A stretch of DNA of 36,669 nt, taken from positions 1-36,669 of IMG/VR virus record IMGVR_UViG_3300045973_000845; one strand, 5' to 3'. Numbering within the stretch: the stretch's first letter is position 1; the number at the start of each line of letters is the position of its first letter. This DNA is from a virus. This document shows, piece after piece, positions 11,414-28,947 of the stretch. The position numbers were made by a program, and so were the translations under genes. The notes under the pieces are model-generated. The model saw only the letters and a list, made by a program, of their open reading frames with translations, searched no databases and was not told the origin of the DNA.

Positions 11414-11793
11414 TGGCTACGTTCGAACCCGCACCAACTTATGCGGACCCGGTCGTTGTAGACGAACATACGGGTAAGCCTCGCTTCAACCCTCTTTGGC
11501 TTCGGTGGTTCCTCAAGGTTGCTTCCTTCATTTCCGCTTCTGGCGGTGGTGCGGGGACTGCCCCAGACCACAACAGCCTCACCGGTCTCCAAGGCGGCAC
11601 GGTTAATGAGTACTACCACCTCACGGCAACCGAGCATACTGCACTCGGCGTGGCATCCAGCTGGCCGATGGTCAAGAACTCCCTCGGCATCACCGAGGAA
11701 CTCACAATCCCGGCCGGCTACCAGTTGATCGTTTCCGGGTCTTTTGATGTTGATGGCATCCTCAACGTAGACGGGGAATTGGTGATCCTATGA
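11413..11793 (+). CDS. Small tail-associated protein with HNxLxGLQGGxxxEYYHLT motif
   Basis: The 126-residue product has FNPLWLRWFLKVASF near the N-terminus. It then has HNSLTGLQGGTVNEYYHLTA, a phrase frequently seen in phage tail-fibre and tail-tip proteins, followed by TEHTALGVASSWPM. The C-terminus is a short beta repeat (TIPAGYQLIVSGSFDVDGILNVDGELVIL) like the 'left-handed ladder' ends of tail proteins. It may be a small tail needle or fibre connector; this is inference from the motif and from its place after the gp10-like gene. Confidence 0.68.
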   Translation: MATFEPAPTYADPVVVDEHTGKPRFNPLWLRWFLKVASFISASGGGAGTAPDHNSLTGLQGGTVNEYYHLTATEHTALGVASSWPMVKNSLGITEELTIPAGYQLIVSGSFDVDGILNVDGELVIL

Positions 11794-13094
11794 TTAAAAC
11801 ACAATCCGCAGCGCAGAGGCTCCAACGCCTCGGTCGAGGGGATGATACTCTTCTTGCCCACATCACAGCTCGCGAAGCCGCTCTGCTGAAGTCCCGCGGC
11901 GGTAGCGGCACTCGCAACCCCAAGACCGGCCTGCTTGAGTTCGACACCAGCGGCGAAGGTCCGGGGGATGCAATAGGTCCGGCTACTGGCGGGAGTGCCG
12001 GGAGCGGCGAAGTTGCTGACCCGTCGATCCCGGTTGCTCCCGCCCTTGAAGGTGTGACAATCACGGGATCAGCGCCCACTAATTCGGTTTCTCCTGGGGA
12101 AGCTGACACCTTCTCCTTCGACATGCCGCAGACAGTCGAGACAGGAATGGCGCCGATTCCGGCTCAATCCGCTCCCCCCAGCTTCATGGAAAATCTGCTC
12201 AAGAAGGGGCAGACCTTCGTGGGGAATCTCGCCCTGGCAAAGGGTGCCGCAATGGCGGCATCTGCGCTTGGGTTACCGGGGGCTGTACTTGGAATGGGGA
12301 TAAGCGCCGCTCATGCCGCCCTTTCCGCCCCCGAAGGCAAAGGTGGTCAGGCTGCTGGTCAAGCAATCGGTAATTCTGTCGTCAACGGTATGGCTAACCA
12401 GGCAACTGGCGGCATGTTCGGAGCTCTTGGTATGAACGCAAACATAGGCCCAGGTATGACGGGCGTCGACAGTAGCGCCGCAAGCAATGGGAGTGGTGGC
12501 GGGGGTTTCGCAAACAACTCCTCGCAATCGCCTACCACCACTCCCCAAGCCTACTCCCCCGCCATCGACTATCTCCGCGGCGGCTATGGCCTCTATCAAG
12601 CCAACAAGCTCTCTCAACTCGCCAAGGGTACTTCCGCCGAGCAAGCGGCGCAGGGCCAACTCACCAACCTCATCAACGACCCCTCTTCGATCACCAAGAC
12701 CCCGGGGTATGAAGCAGGCCTTCAAGCTGTCCAACGAGCTGCCGCCGGCCGAGGCTATCTCGCATCCGGCAATCTGACCGTCGCCCTTTCCAAGTACGGC
12801 ACCGACTTTTACAACAGCTCCCTCTCCACTCTCAATACCCTTGCGAACCAGAATTCGGCTCAACGGTCGCAAGCCCGCACCGATTCCATCCGCCTCGCCG
12901 GCCAGGCCCTGAACTCCCTTGGCTACGGCTACGGCAGGTCAAACCGCCCAGGTGGGTCAGCCGGCGATGGGTCTCCGCTTCAGATGTCCGCCCCCAACTC
13001 CTCGACTGAGGCGACCCCTTCCGCTGATAACTGGTACGACAGCAGCACGCCTGAATCCAACCAAGTTCCTGCCGGAGACTTCTGGTATGAGTGA
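11790..13094 (+). CDS. Putative internal virion/DNA-ejection protein 1
   Basis: A 434-residue protein beginning MIKTQSAAQRLQRLGRGDDTLLAHITAREAALLKSRGGSGTRNPKTGL; the GGSGTxNPxTGL phrase is common in phage ejection-type proteins. Around residues 145-185 an Ala/Gly/Leu-rich segment (LALAKGAAMAASALGLPGAVL...) could insert in or cross a membrane. Long Gly/Ser/Asn-rich stretches alternate with helices such as QANKLSQLAKGTSAEQAAQGQL and LQAVQRAAAGRG. It begins a block of three genes placed where P22 has gp7/gp20/gp16. The function is by position and composition, not by a conserved active site. Confidence 0.65.
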   Translation: MIKTQSAAQRLQRLGRGDDTLLAHITAREAALLKSRGGSGTRNPKTGLLEFDTSGEGPGDAIGPATGGSAGSGEVADPSIPVAPALEGVTITGSAPTNSVSPGEADTFSFDMPQTVETGMAPIPAQSAPPSFMENLLKKGQTFVGNLALAKGAAMAASALGLPGAVLGMGISAAHAALSAPEGKGGQAAGQAIGNSVVNGMANQATGGMFGALGMNANIGPGMTGVDSSAASNGSGGGGFANNSSQSPTTTPQAYSPAIDYLRGGYGLYQANKLSQLAKGTSAEQAAQGQLTNLINDPSSITKTPGYEAGLQAVQRAAAGRGYLASGNLTVALSKYGTDFYNSSLSTLNTLANQNSAQRSQARTDSIRLAGQALNSLGYGYGRSNRPGGSAGDGSPLQMSAPNSSTEATPSADNWYDSSTPESNQVPAGDFWYE

Positions 13095-14226
13095 TTTTAA
13101 TATGTACGGGCCGGAAGCTTCACCGACCCGCCTAATTGAAAATGATGAAGCACAAAACTTCCAGCGGATTGCTGCCGCCCAGCATTCGCAGGCCCTGACA
13201 CAGAAGACAATGGAGGAGCTTGGGCGTGCCAAGAAAATCCGCGATGCTTTTCAGGGGCAGAACTACGACCCGAATGCTCCGGCGTCGCAGCGGATCTTCA
13301 CCGACGCTTCTCGCTTGAGCCAACTAGGCTACCCCCAGGAAGCGGCGAAGATGCTGACCGAAGGCACGCTTGCGGCTTCCCGTGAAGCAATGACTTCTGC
13401 CCATCAAGCTCAAGGCGCTCTCGCCAAGGCCAAGGGGTTTGATGAAATTGCGCAGGCACAAGCCCGCAACTATCAAGGTGTCACCGACCAGAAGACCTTC
13501 GATCTCGCGAATGCTGTCTGGAGTCATCAGACAGGGCAACCGAGTCCCTTCATCGGGATGCAGTATACTCCGCAGCTGAAGGACTACATCATTAGTCAGG
13601 GGCTGAATGCGAAGGACGTTGCCCTGATGGATTATGAAAAGGGGAAGGCGAAGGAAGCTGTTTCGGCAGAGAAGTCGCTGACGGATCTGCGAAATGCGCG
13701 AGCAGAAGCAGCCCGCGCACAGGCCGAGCTTTCGAGGACTCGCGGGGACAAGCTTGAAAAAGTTGGAGGTCCGGGCGCCAAGGATATTGGGATGCCGCCA
13801 AAGGACGCAACCAAACTCGCTATGCGAGCTATCCTTGATGTCGAACCCGAACTTGTTAACGACAGTGTGCGCCGTCTTGCTGATGTCATCACCGGGGAAG
13901 CTCAAGAAATAAAGAAAACTCAGCGGGATCTTACCTGGGATAAGGCGATTCAACGCGCGCTAGAGGCGCACAAATCGGAAATCCTCACCGACGCCATCCC
14001 AGAAAAGGGTGGGATGGCCCAGGTGCAGCGAGCTGTAGGAATTGGTGGCACGAAGCCGGTGAGGGTCTACCGCCCCACAGTTGCTGGTGGCGGGACTGAC
14101 ATCCCGGAGATCGCAACGAAAGGTTCTGCCTATAAACCCGGGAAATCCTACAGGTTCCCTGATGGGCGAGTCGGAGTCTACACGGGCCGTGATGCTGACG
14201 GCAAACTTCTGATTGAGTGGAGATAG
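13087..14226 (+). CDS. Putative internal virion/DNA-ejection protein 2 (helical)
   Basis: I chose the ATG at 13087 (GGAG upstream, overlapping the previous stop). The 379-residue product is mostly alpha-helical and coiled coil: NFQRIAAAQHSQALTQKTME, FTDASRLSQLGYPQEAAKML, ASREAMTSAHQAQGALAKAK and AEKSLTDLRNARAEAARAQA. It ends with a small beta motif, YKPGKSYRFPDGRVGVYTG, resembling a short DNA- or wall-binding barrel end. It is rich in Ala, Gln and Lys and has no membrane span. Its place between two other large internal proteins suggests an ejection-complex component. Confidence 0.65.
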   Translation: MSDFNMYGPEASPTRLIENDEAQNFQRIAAAQHSQALTQKTMEELGRAKKIRDAFQGQNYDPNAPASQRIFTDASRLSQLGYPQEAAKMLTEGTLAASREAMTSAHQAQGALAKAKGFDEIAQAQARNYQGVTDQKTFDLANAVWSHQTGQPSPFIGMQYTPQLKDYIISQGLNAKDVALMDYEKGKAKEAVSAEKSLTDLRNARAEAARAQAELSRTRGDKLEKVGGPGAKDIGMPPKDATKLAMRAILDVEPELVNDSVRRLADVITGEAQEIKKTQRDLTWDKAIQRALEAHKSEILTDAIPEKGGMAQVQRAVGIGGTKPVRVYRPTVAGGGTDIPEIATKGSAYKPGKSYRFPDGRVGVYTGRDADGKLLIEWR

Positions 14227-22423: not shown

Positions 22424-23626
22424 CTAACTCCCCTCGAACCCCCCCACATACTGCAGCACGAAGGCTCCGCCCTCCTGGAGGAGCTTCACATAACCCGCCT
22501 TGATGACACCGGAGAGCACGCCCTCGTAGTCCTTGGCGTTCGGGAAGTGGGTATGGACTACGCGATAGGCTTGGTCGTAGGGAATCTTGCCGTGCCGCTT
22601 GATGATTGCAAGGAGCTTGTCGACCTCGATCGAGTCCTCGGACTTGCCGATGTTGGAGAAGACTTTCGGGATGTCCTTCTCGAGGTTCTCGAGCATGAAG
22701 GTGGCGAGCTCGAGGTCGCCTTGGGCGATGACGCGATCGTCGCTTCGGGAGAGGGAAAGGATCGTGGCCGTCTTACACATATGGGTTTGCTTCCGGGCGA
22801 GATACCCTTCGGCCATTGCCGACCCGACAGTTTTGACTGCATTCTCCCACTGCAGCTGATAGATCGGACGGTACCACTCGCGCGCATCCTTGGTGATCGT
22901 CATCGGACCGACAATTTTGGTAGAGATATACTCGAGATCCTGGATGAGTTTCAGCCGGAGGTCATCGTCATCGTTGGAGATCTTCTCATCCACCCAGGGA
23001 ACATACTGCTCCTTCTCACTCCCATAGACGAAGACGCAGCGGGAGGTGAAACCGCCCCCAACAGCAGCCTCGGGGACATTGGTCTGGAGCCAGGACGGCG
23101 TGGTGCAGCCGATCATGTTGATCCAGGGACTCTCAATCAGCTCGCTTCCTGAGGTCTTGGTCGTCTTATCAAAGACCCTGCCGCCGTCCCAGAGGCTGAT
23201 ATAGGCGTCAATCTGCGCCTGATCTGTCGGGTCAATGAGGTTGCCGAGTTCGCCCGATGCACAGGTGATCGCACTCATGGGGTGGTATTCATCTTCGTAC
23301 TCGAACTGCTCGGCGCACGCGCTGAATGCCACCACGAGCGACTGCCACGTGCATACCTTGGGGCCGAAGTTAATGCCAGGGACCTTCTTCAAGAGGTCCA
23401 TCCCGATGTCCATAGTGGTGGTCTTCGAGACGATGCCGGGCTTGGCTACGAAGATAATATAAAAATTAGGGTACCATTGGAACCTTTTCATGTCTATCCA
23501 GACCTTGCGGCGGATTGCCCCAGCCAGGACCGAGACGCCGCACCAGAAGTGCATGCGGCGAGGCGCTTCCGTGACTGCGGCATAATCTACATACGCGGTG
23601 AGCCAGTCGCTGAAGTTGCGGGCCAT
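22424..23626 (-). CDS. DUF3987-like phage helicase/primase ATPase
   Basis: I use the ATG at 23626 (AAGGA seven bases upstream; ATG at 23629 is possible), giving 400 residues. The N-terminus (WLTAYVDYAAVTEAPRRMHFW..GVSVLAGAIRR) matches the lead of phage DUF3987-type proteins. Walker A is AKPGIVSKTTTM (about 61-72) with a lysine-threonine pair; a Walker B-like AITCASGELGNLI follows near 117-130. Then come FDKTTKTSGSELIESPWINMIGCTTPSWL and VGGGFTSRCVFVYG, the sensor and arginine-finger region. Members are thought to unwind DNA for phage replication. The C-terminal 70 residues look like a winged helix. It lies next to the DNA polymerase, separated only by a homing endonuclease. Confidence 0.8.
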   Translation of the reverse strand: MARNFSDWLTAYVDYAAVTEAPRRMHFWCGVSVLAGAIRRKVWIDMKRFQWYPNFYIIFVAKPGIVSKTTTMDIGMDLLKKVPGINFGPKVCTWQSLVVAFSACAEQFEYEDEYHPMSAITCASGELGNLIDPTDQAQIDAYISLWDGGRVFDKTTKTSGSELIESPWINMIGCTTPSWLQTNVPEAAVGGGFTSRCVFVYGSEKEQYVPWVDEKISNDDDDLRLKLIQDLEYISTKIVGPMTITKDAREWYRPIYQLQWENAVKTVGSAMAEGYLARKQTHMCKTATILSLSRSDDRVIAQGDLELATFMLENLEKDIPKVFSNIGKSEDSIEVDKLLAIIKRHGKIPYDQAYRVVHTHFPNAKDYEGVLSGVIKAGYVKLLQEGGAFVLQYVGGFEGS

Positions 23627-24072
23627 CATCCATTCCTTACGTTTACTTCCCAGGATTTTCTGGCGCAAGCAGCTTCGAAAAAGTCCTGCCCGTAGTAGAG
23701 AATGATACGCGGCCCGCCGTGAAATCCGTAGGAAGCCCAGAGACCGCGATCGCCTAAGAAATAAACGCCGACAACTCCAGAGGTGTTGCACTTACCCAAC
23801 CTACCTACTTTACCCTCTTTCCGATTAGAGCGCTGCTCTTTCGCCGTAGCCCACCTGCAGTTTTCGGGGGTGTAGTCCCCGTCGCTATCTTTGCGATCAA
23901 GGGTATAACCCTCAGGCCTTCTCCCCATATCCGCACGGAAATTGGCATAGGAGAGTAGCCAGCGGTCACAGATCTTTACACCCCTTCCGCCGTAGATCGG
24001 GTATTTTTCGTGCTGCGGGTCGCAGCAGCGAGCTTTCATAGCTCGGTAAGAAATTTTAGTTGGTGACATCAT
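23626..24072 (-). CDS. HNH homing endonuclease with AP2 DNA-binding domain
   Basis: The 148-residue protein has the freestanding-HNH phage layout: MKARCCDPQHEKYPIYGGRGVKICDRW, YANFRADMGRRPEGYTLDRKDSDGDYTPENCRWAT (TLDRKDxDGxYxPxNCRWAT is the core) and EQRSNRKEGKVGR. The C-terminal SGVVGVYFLGDRGLWASYGF...DFFEAACARKSWE matches an AP2 domain, which is often fused to such enzymes. They cut a specific site and copy themselves into genomes lacking them. It sits between the DNA polymerase and the helicase with only 21 bp to the former, and its stop overlaps the helicase start. Its base composition looks slightly less GC-rich than the neighbours. Confidence 0.88.
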   Translation of the reverse strand: MMSPTKISYRAMKARCCDPQHEKYPIYGGRGVKICDRWLLSYANFRADMGRRPEGYTLDRKDSDGDYTPENCRWATAKEQRSNRKEGKVGRLGKCNTSGVVGVYFLGDRGLWASYGFHGGPRIILYYGQDFFEAACARKSWEVNVRNG

Positions 24073-24093: not shown

Positions 24094-25482
24094 TTAACAA
24101 TCGCCCCAGCTCTTTTCCGACGTCTTGAGCTCGATGGGGATGATCAGGGTGTCCGGGTAGGGCACTACGATCCTGGACAGGCGAGCAAAATCTTCATGAC
24201 ACTCGGCAGAACGGTGAGTTGGGAACTGGCCGGCGAGGGAGTCGTGAACTTGGAGGAGGACCTGAATCTGTGGCGCTTGATCGTACAGGTTCTTCCAGAC
24301 CCGATTGATAACACAGGCAACGGTGGATTGCGGCAGCCAGGCGATTGCCTCGCGGCAGGTTGACTCGCTGACTCGATCGAAGTAAACCCGCGTGTAGCCG
24401 AAGGCATTCTTGACGCGCCGCGTGCGACGGATCTCGTCACAGAAGCGCTCTTGCCATTCCTTAATCTTAGGATACTTACCGAAGTACCACCTTTGTGTAC
24501 GTTCTGCCTGATGCACAGTGAGTCCAAGGCGTTGGGAAAGGCCAACAGCGGTCCCCAGATAATGCGTCCCATGTGCGAAACTTTTGAAGGTTTTATATTT
24601 AGGATTATCTTGCCCATTGGGAAGCCTCTTGGTGATGGTTGGGTCGGAATAGAATTCGCGCGCCGTTTCGATGTAGGGGTCACGGCCCTCATTCAGCATG
24701 GCCTTCATCTCGGTTTCGTCCGACTCCCAGATCACGACCCGCAAGTCGGCCTTGGAGAGGTCGGTATCGAAGAACGTGAAGCCATGATCTGGGACAAAGA
24801 TCGTGCGCATGTTCGGCAGCACAAGATCGCTCTCGTCATCTTCGCCGCCCTTTGGGATGTTCTGGAGATTGCCGCCGGAGTCGAAAGCGTTTTCGCTCGA
24901 GCTCAGACGGTAGGTTTCTGTGCCGCAGATGTTGTAGCTTGTGCGCATCCGATCGTCGATGTCGAGGGGCATGCGAATGAATGTCGACAGGAAGACGCGG
25001 ATCGTGCGATACTCCTGGATCTGGTGGATGAGCGGGCGGAGAAGGGGGTTCTTGAGGGCGATCGTCGCGAGCGCCGAGTCGTCGCAGGTGATGTGTGGGA
25101 CTTCGCCCTTCTTCGCGCGCGACATGATCGGCTTGAGGTTGAAGTCACCGTAGAAAAGCTCTTTCATCTGCTTGTTCGAGTTGACGTTGAGCTTGTGGCC
25201 CAGGACATACTCGAAGTAGGCGAGGCGCTTGGCGAGCTCGGTCTCCATCTTCTTGTCCATCCAGGCGCGCTCAACCTTGTCGATCCGCACACCCCGCTGC
25301 ATGGCCTGAAGGACTGGCCAGAACATTGACTGCTGGAAATCCTCGACTTCTTGGAGGCCCATCGCGGGGATGGCGCGCTGGAGGGCTTCGCCCGATTCCC
25401 GTGTGCGAACACAATCGACGCAGTTGTATGACCAGAGCTGGTCTTCGCCAACACTCTTCGACCAGACTTTATCAAGCTCCAT
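24094..25482 (-). CDS. Family A DNA polymerase, polymerase half (with last proofreading motif)
   Basis: A 462-residue product if started at the ATG at 25482, which has GGAG six bases upstream; earlier in-frame ATGs (25536, 25518, 25494) are alternatives. Exo III (Y19-x3-D23 in SYNCVDCV) is present at the very N-terminus. Then come TETYRLSSSENAFDSGGNLQNIP (about 188-210), motif A FFDTDLSKADLR (D241; the usual glutamate is D246 and the usual glutamine is K244), motif B KSFAHGTHYLG (K300, Y308) and motif C QVHDSL (H413, D414). These are the palm and fingers of Pol I-type replicases. The N-terminal half of the exonuclease is encoded separately upstream in another frame. Confidence 0.88.
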   Translation of the reverse strand: MELDKVWSKSVGEDQLWSYNCVDCVRTRESGEALQRAIPAMGLQEVEDFQQSMFWPVLQAMQRGVRIDKVERAWMDKKMETELAKRLAYFEYVLGHKLNVNSNKQMKELFYGDFNLKPIMSRAKKGEVPHITCDDSALATIALKNPLLRPLIHQIQEYRTIRVFLSTFIRMPLDIDDRMRTSYNICGTETYRLSSSENAFDSGGNLQNIPKGGEDDESDLVLPNMRTIFVPDHGFTFFDTDLSKADLRVVIWESDETEMKAMLNEGRDPYIETAREFYSDPTITKRLPNGQDNPKYKTFKSFAHGTHYLGTAVGLSQRLGLTVHQAERTQRWYFGKYPKIKEWQERFCDEIRRTRRVKNAFGYTRVYFDRVSESTCREAIAWLPQSTVACVINRVWKNLYDQAPQIQVLLQVHDSLAGQFPTHRSAECHEDFARLSRIVVPYPDTLIIPIELKTSEKSWGDC

Positions 25483-26536
25483 GACCGGCTCCATTCGTCT
25501 TATACCAGGTAGCGCCATCGTCTTTCCAGTATACATACTCCTCGCAGTACATGGACGCGATAAAATCCAACGACTTTCTGAGACCCGCGAACAACGTATG
25601 TTGGCTGATCATTGTGTCTTGTTTGACGTTCGGGACGAAGTGCCAATGGCGATAGGTATACTGCGCGTCGTACAGGAGGTTCTGCCCGCGTACCTTTACA
25701 GCACGGTGCGTGAGGAGCTTATACAAAAGGTAAACAATTTCTGCTTCAGCATCCGGACCCCAAAAACCTTCACGATCTTCCACGCACATAAGTGGAATAC
25801 ATATCGCGTCGTCGCGGGACCAGCTGAGTCCAGCGCAAGCAATGTGACCGGCTCGCGTTTCCAGGTCAAAGTCCAGCCAAAAACTTTCAGACTCCGCTCG
25901 CTCGAGGAGGCTGTTGAGGGTGTCGAGGACTGCGGCATATGAGGGGCGGAGGAGGAAACGCCAGGTGTTGGCGGGCATCTCACGAGAGTCGCGGTGCTTG
26001 GCGACTCGCTTGAGATCGAGGACAGTGATGGCTCGGTTTTCCCACTGAGCAAAGATGGCTGCGGGAGTGATGATGGGGATCAGGAGTGGCTGGTCGTTGC
26101 GGGGAAGCTGGTCTGCACGCAGGAGGGAGCCACGCCACTTCATCGCACCCTCGGCGGACGACAGAGCCCACAGAGCGAGGTTTCCAGCGGCGACGATGAT
26201 GTTGGGCTTGACCTCGCGGACCTCGCGGTGGAGCTGTTCTACCCCGGCGACAATCTCGGGAGCGACCCACTTCCCGCGCACGAACTGGTGGTACTGATAG
26301 ACCACATCCATCTTCTTCTTGGGCAGCCACTTGGCGATTTGGCCGTTCGGAGGGCGAGCATTCACGACGTTCGTGAGATAGCACTCCGAGCGCATGATGC
26401 CCGCTTCGTGGAGCATGCGATTGAATTCCTTTCCTACCTCTCCTGAGAAAGGTTCCTGGGTGTGGTAGTCGTCTTGGGAGTAGTACTCTCCAACGACAAG
26501 AATCTTGGCGGGGGATGGTCCGCTTCCTCGGTTCAT
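25472..26536 (-). CDS. Family A DNA polymerase, N-terminal half: degenerate UDG-like domain plus Exo I/Exo II
   Basis: A 354-residue product behind GGAG and ATG. Residues about 10-180 read like a family 4/SPO1-type uracil-DNA glycosylase: ILVVGEYYSQDDYHTQEPFSGEVGKEFNRML, GIMRSECYLTNVVNARPP, PNIIVAAGNLALWAL and a late IITPAAIF. The usual GEAPG is GEYYS and the usual histidine of the HP(A/S) motif is T157, so activity is doubtful. Then Exo I DFDLET (D224, E226) and Exo II GQNLLYDAQ (N286, D290) of a DEDDy proofreading domain. Exo III lies in the next frame. The reading stops at 25472, overlapping the downstream gene by 11 bp, so the polymerase is split inside one domain. Confidence 0.82.
   Translation of the reverse strand: MNRGSGPSPAKILVVGEYYSQDDYHTQEPFSGEVGKEFNRMLHEAGIMRSECYLTNVVNARPPNGQIAKWLPKKKMDVVYQYHQFVRGKWVAPEIVAGVEQLHREVREVKPNIIVAAGNLALWALSSAEGAMKWRGSLLRADQLPRNDQPLLIPIITPAAIFAQWENRAITVLDLKRVAKHRDSREMPANTWRFLLRPSYAAVLDTLNSLLERAESESFWLDFDLETRAGHIACAGLSWSRDDAICIPLMCVEDREGFWGPDAEAEIVYLLYKLLTHRAVKVRGQNLLYDAQYTYRHWHFVPNVKQDTMISQHTLFAGLRKSLDFIASMYCEEYVYWKDDGATWYKTNGAGHGA
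25489..25492 (-). promoter_or_regulatory. GGAG ribosome site inside the split polymerase
   Basis: GGAG lies six bases before the ATG at 25482 and inside the 3' end of the upstream half. It favours re-initiation or coupled translation of the second half rather than a frameshift, and it decides the start chosen for that gene. Confidence 0.5.
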
Positions 26537-26923: not shown

Positions 26924-27607
26924 TCACTTGCCGGCGAGCTTGAACGCCTTGAGGAGGTAGGGATCGGGATCGGGCTGTGCGCGATACCACTTGGCGTAGC
27001 CGTAGGGTACATCGGCAACGAGCTCGCCGCGATGCTTACCAAAGGTCATGGTGACTGGAATGCGTGCATGCTCGCTGAAGGCATAAAGTTCGTCAAAGGA
27101 CTTGACGCCAGAGGCCTCGATGCAGCGGCCCAGGACGGAGGCGCAGAGCGACACATCCTCAGCTGCGGAGTGGGCGCCGCGGAGCCTCGCTCTGGTGGTG
27201 GCGTTAGCACCGAAGAGGAAGTAGACCATCGCGCTCAGATTGTGGGCGTCGCACTCCGGCCACAGTTTGCGCGACATCGCCAGGGTGCAGATGCGTGGGA
27301 TGGTGGGGCAGCCAAGCGCCTTCCAGTCGAAGTCGATGTTGTGGCCGATGAGGTAGTCGGTGACTGAGGAGATGTAGCTTGCGGCGCCTTCGCTCGGGGG
27401 GAGTCCGACGAGGTCTTCGGGCAGGATGTGGTGAACCGCCATTGCGCCGAAGGCAGGTGGCTTGAGCGGCGTGAAGCGCTGATGGAGGCGGTCGACGGTG
27501 CTGTGGGAGGCGAGTTGGCTGAAGGTGTCGAAGCGTTCCCAGGCGAGTTCAATCACCTCGGCGTCTTCGATGGTGGTAGTTTCGGTGTCAAGGATGATGG
27601 CAGTCAT
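26924..27607 (-). CDS. DnaQ/ExoX-type 3'-5' exonuclease with C-terminal DUF3820-like domain
   Basis: A 227-residue protein. DTETTT (D7, E9) is motif I of the DEDDh family, GHNIDFDWKAL (about 88-98) motif II, and RGAHSAAEDVSL (about 144-155) motif III, with the histidine of the DEDDh type. The C-terminus TMTFGKHRGELVADVPYGYAKWYRAQ matches the DUF3820 'GKhkGxxlxdVPxxYLxWl' pattern. It could trim DNA ends or take part in repair or recombination. Its ATG overlaps the methyltransferase stop (ATGA), so the two are coupled. A hairpin terminator follows. Confidence 0.82.
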   Translation of the reverse strand: MTAIILDTETTTIEDAEVIELAWERFDTFSQLASHSTVDRLHQRFTPLKPPAFGAMAVHHILPEDLVGLPPSEGAASYISSVTDYLIGHNIDFDWKALGCPTIPRICTLAMSRKLWPECDAHNLSAMVYFLFGANATTRARLRGAHSAAEDVSLCASVLGRCIEASGVKSFDELYAFSEHARIPVTMTFGKHRGELVADVPYGYAKWYRAQPDPDPYLLKAFKLAGK

Positions 27608-28947
27608 ACGAGTTCTTTCTGGGCCGAAGCGGCATTGCGGATGGTTTCGAGGCGGGTCACGGAAATTCCGTATGCTTGGGCGTCCTGTTCGAATGCAGTT
27701 GCACTACATTTGCAGAGGTGGGCAGCTTCGAGGATGCCCCCAGTTCCAGCAAAAAAATCAGCCACTCGGTCACCAGCTCCACAGGAACGAGAAAGCAGAT
27801 CTCGGAGCAGTTCGACGGGCTTTTGAGCTGGGTGACCCAGGTTGGCATCGGTGGAACAGGTGACAAGGTCCGGAGCGATTCGAGTAACCTTGCGATCTCC
27901 TTTAATTGCATAAAGGATGGTCTCATACTTTCGCTGGGGACCGTGCTCTGGCCACGGACTACGGAAATTTCCCGGCTTGTGCCATATGAGTGGTGTGCGA
28001 TGTACCTTCCACCCTGCCACCACCATACGCTCACGCAGTTCACTGAAGCGATCAATGTCGCAAAAGACGTAGGCGTGGGCATCGGGCTTGGTGAGTCGGA
28101 AGGTTTCGGGACAAAACCAGTCCATAAGCTCTTGCCAGTGTTCGTAGCTGTCATCATAGAAGTGCTCGCCCATCACAGTGCCCTGGCCGGCATCCCCAAA
28201 AGTGTCCGCACCCATGCCGTAAGGCGGGTCAGTGAGGATGCAGTCGAAGGTGCCGGACGGGAGGAGCGCTGCAAGATTTTCTGAGTCTCCGAGCTGGAGA
28301 GTGTGGCTGGCGGCGAGAACTTGCGGCCCCACGGCTTGCGCGATTGAGACATTGCGAGCTCCTTGCTCTTTCTTTTGGAGGATCTTAAAAGCGTCCTTGA
28401 GGTTGGCGGCTTTCTTGACATCCGGGTCGTTGAGATGCTTGGCGACGATCACTTCCTGGCGAGTCTTGGTGTGGTAATCGCCGACAGAGGAGCCGCGAAC
28501 TTCCTTGGCGATGTCAGCGATGGAGGGAGGCGGAAGGTTGGAAGCCTCGGCTTGAGCAGTTCGGAGCTGAAGAAGCGAGGTGGTTGCACGAGCATTCTCT
28601 TGCCACGTGAGATCCATCCGACGAGCATTTTCTTCATACTCGGCTTCAAGCCGAGCCAGAGGACTAAGTTCGCCGATGTCTGTATAAGGGATGCTGCCTC
28701 CTGGTACAAGTACTGCCCCGTGGAGGAACGTGAGTCCCAGATCATGCAGGTCCTGGACGGCCCGGAGTCGGCGCTCACCTGCCACCAGATAAAAGTCGTT
28801 GAGTTCACGCCGTAGGACGATGGGGTGGAGTAGGCCGATGTTCTGGACGGAGTCACGGAGTTCCCCTAGAGCGACGGGATCGAATTCCTGGCGCTGCCGA
28901 TTGGCTGCGATCTTGATGGAAGAGAGGGGAAGGAAGTGGGCGGTCAC
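27604..28947 (-). CDS. ParB-N domain fused to a DNA methyltransferase (N4-C/N6-A type)
   Basis: A 447-residue GTG-start protein with GGAG upstream. Residues about 5-120 are a ParB/Spo0J-like N-domain: SIKIAANRQRQEFDPVALGEL, then HPIVLRRELNDFYLVAGERRLRAV (GERRLRA at 57-63). Methyltransferase motif IV, TDPPYG, lies at 239-244. HPAQKPVELLRDL (about 372-384) and the SAM-binding VADFFAGTGGILEAA (about 395-409) come afterwards, which is the beta-class order. The middle helical region may give DNA target recognition. Such fusions are often solitary phage methyltransferases that protect against host restriction or mark the phage genome. No partner nuclease is seen. Confidence 0.88.
   Translation of the reverse strand: MTAHFLPLSSIKIAANRQRQEFDPVALGELRDSVQNIGLLHPIVLRRELNDFYLVAGERRLRAVQDLHDLGLTFLHGAVLVPGGSIPYTDIGELSPLARLEAEYEENARRMDLTWQENARATTSLLQLRTAQAEASNLPPPSIADIAKEVRGSSVGDYHTKTRQEVIVAKHLNDPDVKKAANLKDAFKILQKKEQGARNVSIAQAVGPQVLAASHTLQLGDSENLAALLPSGTFDCILTDPPYGMGADTFGDAGQGTVMGEHFYDDSYEHWQELMDWFCPETFRLTKPDAHAYVFCDIDRFSELRERMVVAGWKVHRTPLIWHKPGNFRSPWPEHGPQRKYETILYAIKGDRKVTRIAPDLVTCSTDANLGHPAQKPVELLRDLLSRSCGAGDRVADFFAGTGGILEAAHLCKCSATAFEQDAQAYGISVTRLETIRNAASAQKELV

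Follow-up and report, generated by a model that had tools for sequence, protein, structure and literature searches.

Gene organization and domain content

The window analyzed here is a virus record of 36,669 bases that may be a fragment; its minus strand carries a family A DNA polymerase distributed over two genes. Gene A (25472..26536, minus strand, 354 aa) starts with a uracil-DNA-glycosylase (UDG) domain (Pfam PF03167, 2.3e-18) and continues into the ExoI/ExoII half of a DEDDy exonuclease, with the ExoI D-x-E (D224, E226) at 25859..25867 and the ExoII aspartate D290 at 25667..25669 of the same strand. Gene B (24094..25482, minus strand, 462 aa from its ATG) contains the ExoIII half, with YNCVD (Y37 and D41, P0002 numbering) at 25414..25428, also on the minus strand, and the thumb, fingers and palm of the polymerase (Pfam PF00476, 2.3e-40). 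The motif order of UDG-fused phage family A polymerases, that is, UDG, DEDDy exonuclease and polA, is thus observed across two genes, with every catalytic residue in place. The preliminary description, which placed ExoI and ExoII in the first frame, and ExoIII with the palm in a second frame entered at +1, agrees with the ORF coordinates and motifs, and the break indeed lies within the exonuclease domain, D224, E226 and D290 being in gene A, and Y37 and D41, in gene B. It left out the N-terminal UDG domain of gene A, as well as the HNH endonuclease gene (23626..24072, minus strand; phrog_374, 9.2e-38; phrog_3377, 3e-37) located 21 bp after gene B.

The stop codon of gene A is TGA (25474-25472), followed by an in-frame TAA to form a double stop. 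The frame of gene B, +1 relative to gene A, is open from 25536, with the best start being the ATG at 25482-25480. The resulting overlap of 11 bp (ATGGAGCTTGA, 25472..25482, minus strand) spans the gene B start codon and the gene A stop codon, and a Shine–Dalgarno-like GGAG is found at 25489..25492 (minus strand), with a 6-nt spacer to the ATG; the GGAG, the start codon and the overlap had all been described before and are present in the sequence. Gene A ends approximately 10 aa past the last conserved tryptophan, and gene B starts less than 20 aa before the sequence flanking ExoIII.

Recurrence of the split among relatives

Scans of IMG/VR and phage records yielded about 200 non-identical related contigs. 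In single-frame relatives, the region of the break reads YWKDDGKTW-xxxx-EDQLWxYNCxDC without interruption, while the window has 43 additional nucleotides between the two W codons (25462..25504, minus strand). This segment, overlooked in the preliminary description and with no counterpart in single-frame relatives, contains the TGA TAA, the Shine–Dalgarno-like site and the new start.

The gene is a single ORF in approximately 180 relatives, and 16 contigs besides the window are split at the same exonuclease loop (6 of about 135 in the first alignment scans); because split forms served as seeds for the later scans, these proportions do not reflect prevalence. The split contigs are L015 (Caulobacter phage Kuura), L042, L073, L075, L103, L126, L155, L173, L179, L184 (a contig covering only gene B and the preceding HNH gene), L224 and its near-copy L225, L286, L293, L308, and L314. 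In most of them a Shine–Dalgarno-like site precedes the second start, often within the Gly-Gly-stop end of gene A (GGAGG). Across the approximately 2.4-kb gene, all frame breaks in the set of about 200 contigs fall in a few loops, mostly the exonuclease loop, and none is at a random place. Outside this loop, L008, L009 and Vibrio phage L014 are interrupted in the palm behind NLQNIPKG, L027 and L173 in the UDG region or the linker belonging to it, and L318 immediately past ExoIII. A search of bacterial genomes gave only one distant relative, which is fused.

The palm split, just before motif A, is a second recurrent site (4612-5166 in L014, near 5640 in both L008 and L009); in Vibrio phage VS-ABTNL-3 (L014) it holds a gene of 184 aa (phrog_8380, function not known), much like in MEP401. 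In L173 the polymerase gene is in three pieces (11450-13280), with an HNH gene in the UDG domain and an unrelated ORF of 114 aa at the exonuclease-loop split.

In a phylogeny built from the polymerase part, the split requires 12 changes, at least nine of them forced by well-supported branches, and the nearest neighbors of the window, L126, L173 and L184, are likewise split. Seven splits share the junction WKPDxxxWKxGG*/xHETxEDxW. The polymerase and UDG parts reject a single clade for these seven, the exonuclease part not clearly so (p 0.07-0.64), while the same test rejected matched fused controls in eight cases out of eight. This pattern is suggestive of the split having spread together with its flanks by co-conversion.

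These data bear on the possibility that the window contains a sequencing or assembly error and that the true gene is one frame with a longer loop. The exact junction comes from one contig, no second instance being found among the contigs searched, and any change of one base in either direction could join both frames. Still, the missing base considered in the preliminary description does not fit, as the difference is not a net one-base change: a double stop, a Shine–Dalgarno-like site and a start within 43 extra bases are not what a one-base slip produces. About 200 homologues lack random frame breaks, 16 others are broken at the same loop, and the nearest neighbors L126 and L184 are also split. 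A one-base error is ruled out by the extra bases and the recurrence of the split, and we regard an error of any kind as very improbable.

Programmed frameshifting, yielding one fused protein from both frames, is given an even smaller chance. Although gene B lies in the +1 frame right at the stop of gene A, the GCT TGA site contains no slippery codon capable of prfB-like re-pairing, as had been pointed out from the sequence; the layouts and the distances between the two genes vary among split relatives, and in five of them a whole HNH gene intervenes, so slippage fusion cannot be the shared mechanism. With 16 other splits, varied stop/start layouts and five complete HNH genes between the halves, the splits in general cannot be put down to frameshifting or to a lost base. 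Hence, of the options initially listed, that of two separate polypeptides is supported, their reassembly being discussed below. Intact single-frame homologues, proposed as a sign of an error or a recent lesion if accompanied by no conservation of the split, number about 180, yet the split has recurred and persisted.

No Rfam match to a group I intron was found in the window or in eight split relatives, and the window has only 43 extra nucleotides. A split intein is likewise unsupported: gene A extends only about 10 aa beyond its last conserved tryptophan, gene B has less than 20 aa ahead of the ExoIII-flanking sequence, and Pfam detected no intein domain in either.

HNH endonuclease genes at the split

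In five contigs (L042, L155, L184, L293, and L308) an HNH ORF of the phrog_374/phrog_3377 family is located between the halves. The HNH protein of the window belongs to the same family, with 36-45% identity to those of L042 and L155. Overall, 7 of 13 split contigs, compared to 10 of 167 fused ones (Fisher p 2e-5), have an HNH gene either in the split or no more than 300 nt behind the polymerase. A query taken from a contig was not scored for that contig, and all queries were drawn from this phage group, so that other endonuclease families could be missed in split and fused contigs alike.

Two pairs of close relatives differ in this respect. L314 has the same flanks as L293 and both ends of the HNH gene, with the middle deleted, and its polymerase is still split. 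Gene B of L126 and L184 is 99.8% identical, and the HNH gene is present in L184 only.

Homing-endonuclease genes in pieces, of the Aeh1 NrdA type, are recognized by a gene contiguous in relatives, an endonuclease gene at the split, and two products that reassemble into an active enzyme. The first is observed here, given two ORFs in the window and about 180 single-frame relatives; for the third, conserved residues and purifying selection give indirect support. The second is absent from the split of the window, the HNH gene being behind gene B, and we therefore classify the window as a derived endonuclease-free form rather than a full member. Local alignment of the 43 extra bases did not yield an HNH remnant, similarity being not above background for six of seven reference genes, and within the range of shuffled sequences for the seventh. 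The history of the window itself is therefore inferred from its relatives.

An alternative is that small indels in a tolerant loop produced the split, HNH and other small genes having landed later at a gene boundary already in place, without homing endonucleases having caused the fission. L286, L073, L179 and L224 are split without any insert, hence HNH insertion is not established as the origin of each split; the boundary holds the unrelated 114-aa ORF in L173 and, in Kuura, two small ORFs that match no family with confidence, and the same doubt has been raised for gp43 of phage 25 (PMC2988022). On the other hand, HNH genes of one family occupy the same codons in different lineages, L173 and L318 carry related HNH genes elsewhere as well, the former within its UDG part and the latter past ExoIII, and, judging by the L293/L314 and L126/L184 pairs, the absence of an HNH gene can be secondary or recent. 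We consider this alternative to be the less likely account, albeit one with an appreciable chance of about one in a few.

Conservation of the two halves

The residues of the putative composite exonuclease site, D224, E226 and D290 from gene A, and Y37 and D41 from gene B, are conserved in every split copy covering them, and the polymerase residues D259, K318, H431 and D432 are likewise retained in all split copies that cover them. The dN/dS values are 0.064 and 0.048 for the two halves in L293/L314, 0.046 for gene B in L126/L184, and 0.07 for the polymerase part in L126/L173; for the palm split in L008/L009 they are 0.12 and 0.08. Purifying selection thus acts on both halves in split relatives.

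The fused relative L017 was modeled with AlphaFold (mean pLDDT 92); in this model the break maps to a coil of low order connecting helices, and the stretch of least confidence is where the palm split occurs. The best matches among solved structures are Pol I/Klenow. Kuura and VS-ABTNL-3, both cultured phages, have a split gene, and no other DNA polymerase is annotated in either. As the break falls between ExoII and ExoIII, the products of genes A and B would have to join to rebuild the proofreading site and a Klenow-type polymerase. The conserved residues, selection, the L017 model, the Pol I/Klenow matches and the cultured split phages support such reassembly, albeit without proving it.

Close upstream of the split polymerase, two genes away, is a gene encoding a DnaQ-like 3'-5' exonuclease (26924-27607, minus strand; phrog_192, 4.2e-45), a second possible proofreader, also found in 16 related contigs from one part of the group, either split or fused. 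It allows for a different scenario, with no reassembly at all: gene B would encode an exonuclease-deficient polymerase, gene A, a separate UDG, and the DnaQ-like exonuclease would proofread in trans. This seems unlikely. The D-E-D and Y-D residues are kept in all covering split copies, and both halves are under strong purifying selection; moreover, the DnaQ-like gene is present in only four of the split contigs tested. As its distribution follows a subset of the phage group that includes fused members, rather than the split, we rejected it as a partner of the split.

Several other features of the locus are worth mentioning. The gene at 27604-28947 (minus strand) encodes a ParB-N domain fused to an N6/N4 DNA methyltransferase, and the order methyltransferase, polymerase, primase-like (DUF3987) gene is conserved in most relatives. 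In the O-helix of gene B, H322 (P0002 numbering; KSFAHGTHYLG) occupies a position that appears to be His in the group (HGTNY), as assigned by eye; in known family A polymerases it is Phe or Tyr. The Glu of motif A is Asp in the group (DLSKADLR). Both substitutions are possibly relevant to nucleotide selection.

Proposed origin of the split polymerase

Taken together, these observations make it probable that fission linked to a homing endonuclease has produced a lastingly split, two-chain polymerase. A gene encoding UDG, exonuclease and polymerase would have been broken in the flexible ExoII–ExoIII loop when a free-standing HNH gene of the homing type inserted there, complete with a stop and a start signal. 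Loss of the endonuclease gene may have followed with the split retained, and the window, where a related HNH gene lies directly downstream, would represent this state without an endonuclease. We infer HNH insertion as the cause in the lineage of the window itself. The two overlapping genes are probably translationally coupled, gene B being presumably translated by reinitiation or coupling, and the proofreading site would be rebuilt from D-E-D of gene A and Y-D of gene B.

A broader generalization is offered tentatively, and we would not yet favor it: the exonuclease loop might be a fission hot spot, where one HNH family has split the gene repeatedly throughout a phage group. The endonuclease genes would then have disappeared or relocated to the neighborhood, and what is left would be durable two-chain polymerases in which two proteins share the proofreading site. 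The adjoining HNH endonuclease may cut intact alleles in trans, with the split spreading together with its flanks as a cleavage-resistant allele.

Only a few phages are known to have enzymes split by homing endonucleases, and most of these are isolated examples. In the present group, one position in many related phages presents an intact gene, a split occupied by an endonuclease gene, a decaying endonuclease gene, and an empty split, which makes the course of gene fission readable and testable. Natural two-part polymerases cut through the proofreading site may also be useful for studies of split-active-site reassembly and for split-polymerase design.

Comparison with known systems

No report of this split site was found in the literature covered, most subscription papers being outside its scope. 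The cultured phage Kuura (genes 029 and 026, OQ067476.1) has the same division into UDG–exonuclease and ExoIII–polymerase, with its gene A annotated as hypothetical only. It differs from the window in having two small ORFs of no known function between the halves, and is distant (approximately 29% identity).

In OM43 phages MEP401 and MEP402 a family A polymerase is encoded in two ORFs (PMC10580990). As here, the division of a phage PolA recurs among the members of a group, and cultured phages show it; unlike in the window, the split lies within the polymerase domain, with PF00476 on both sides and a small ORF of unknown function in between. It resembles the palm split of L008, L009 and L014, and not that in the exonuclease loop.

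In Aeromonas phage 25 a family B polymerase is split into gp43A and gp43B, which co-purify and show activity; a homing endonuclease gene separates the two genes in phage 25, and an untranslated spacer does so in 44RR (PMC2988022). As in the window, a DNA polymerase is encoded by two genes, but these belong to family B and T4-like phages, and have no overlapping stop and start.

In Aeromonas phage Aeh1, where nrdA is split by insertion of the HNH gene mobE, the products of both pieces come together as an active enzyme (PMC2988022). As in relatives of the window, a free-standing HNH gene splits the gene of an essential enzyme; that case, however, is a single one, concerns ribonucleotide reductase, and retains the endonuclease gene in place, whereas here a family A polymerase is cut through the exonuclease site in many independent cases, with no endonuclease gene in the split of the window. 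The split in the window is real, and differs from the known cases in the break inside the exonuclease domain and in having no endonuclease gene left.
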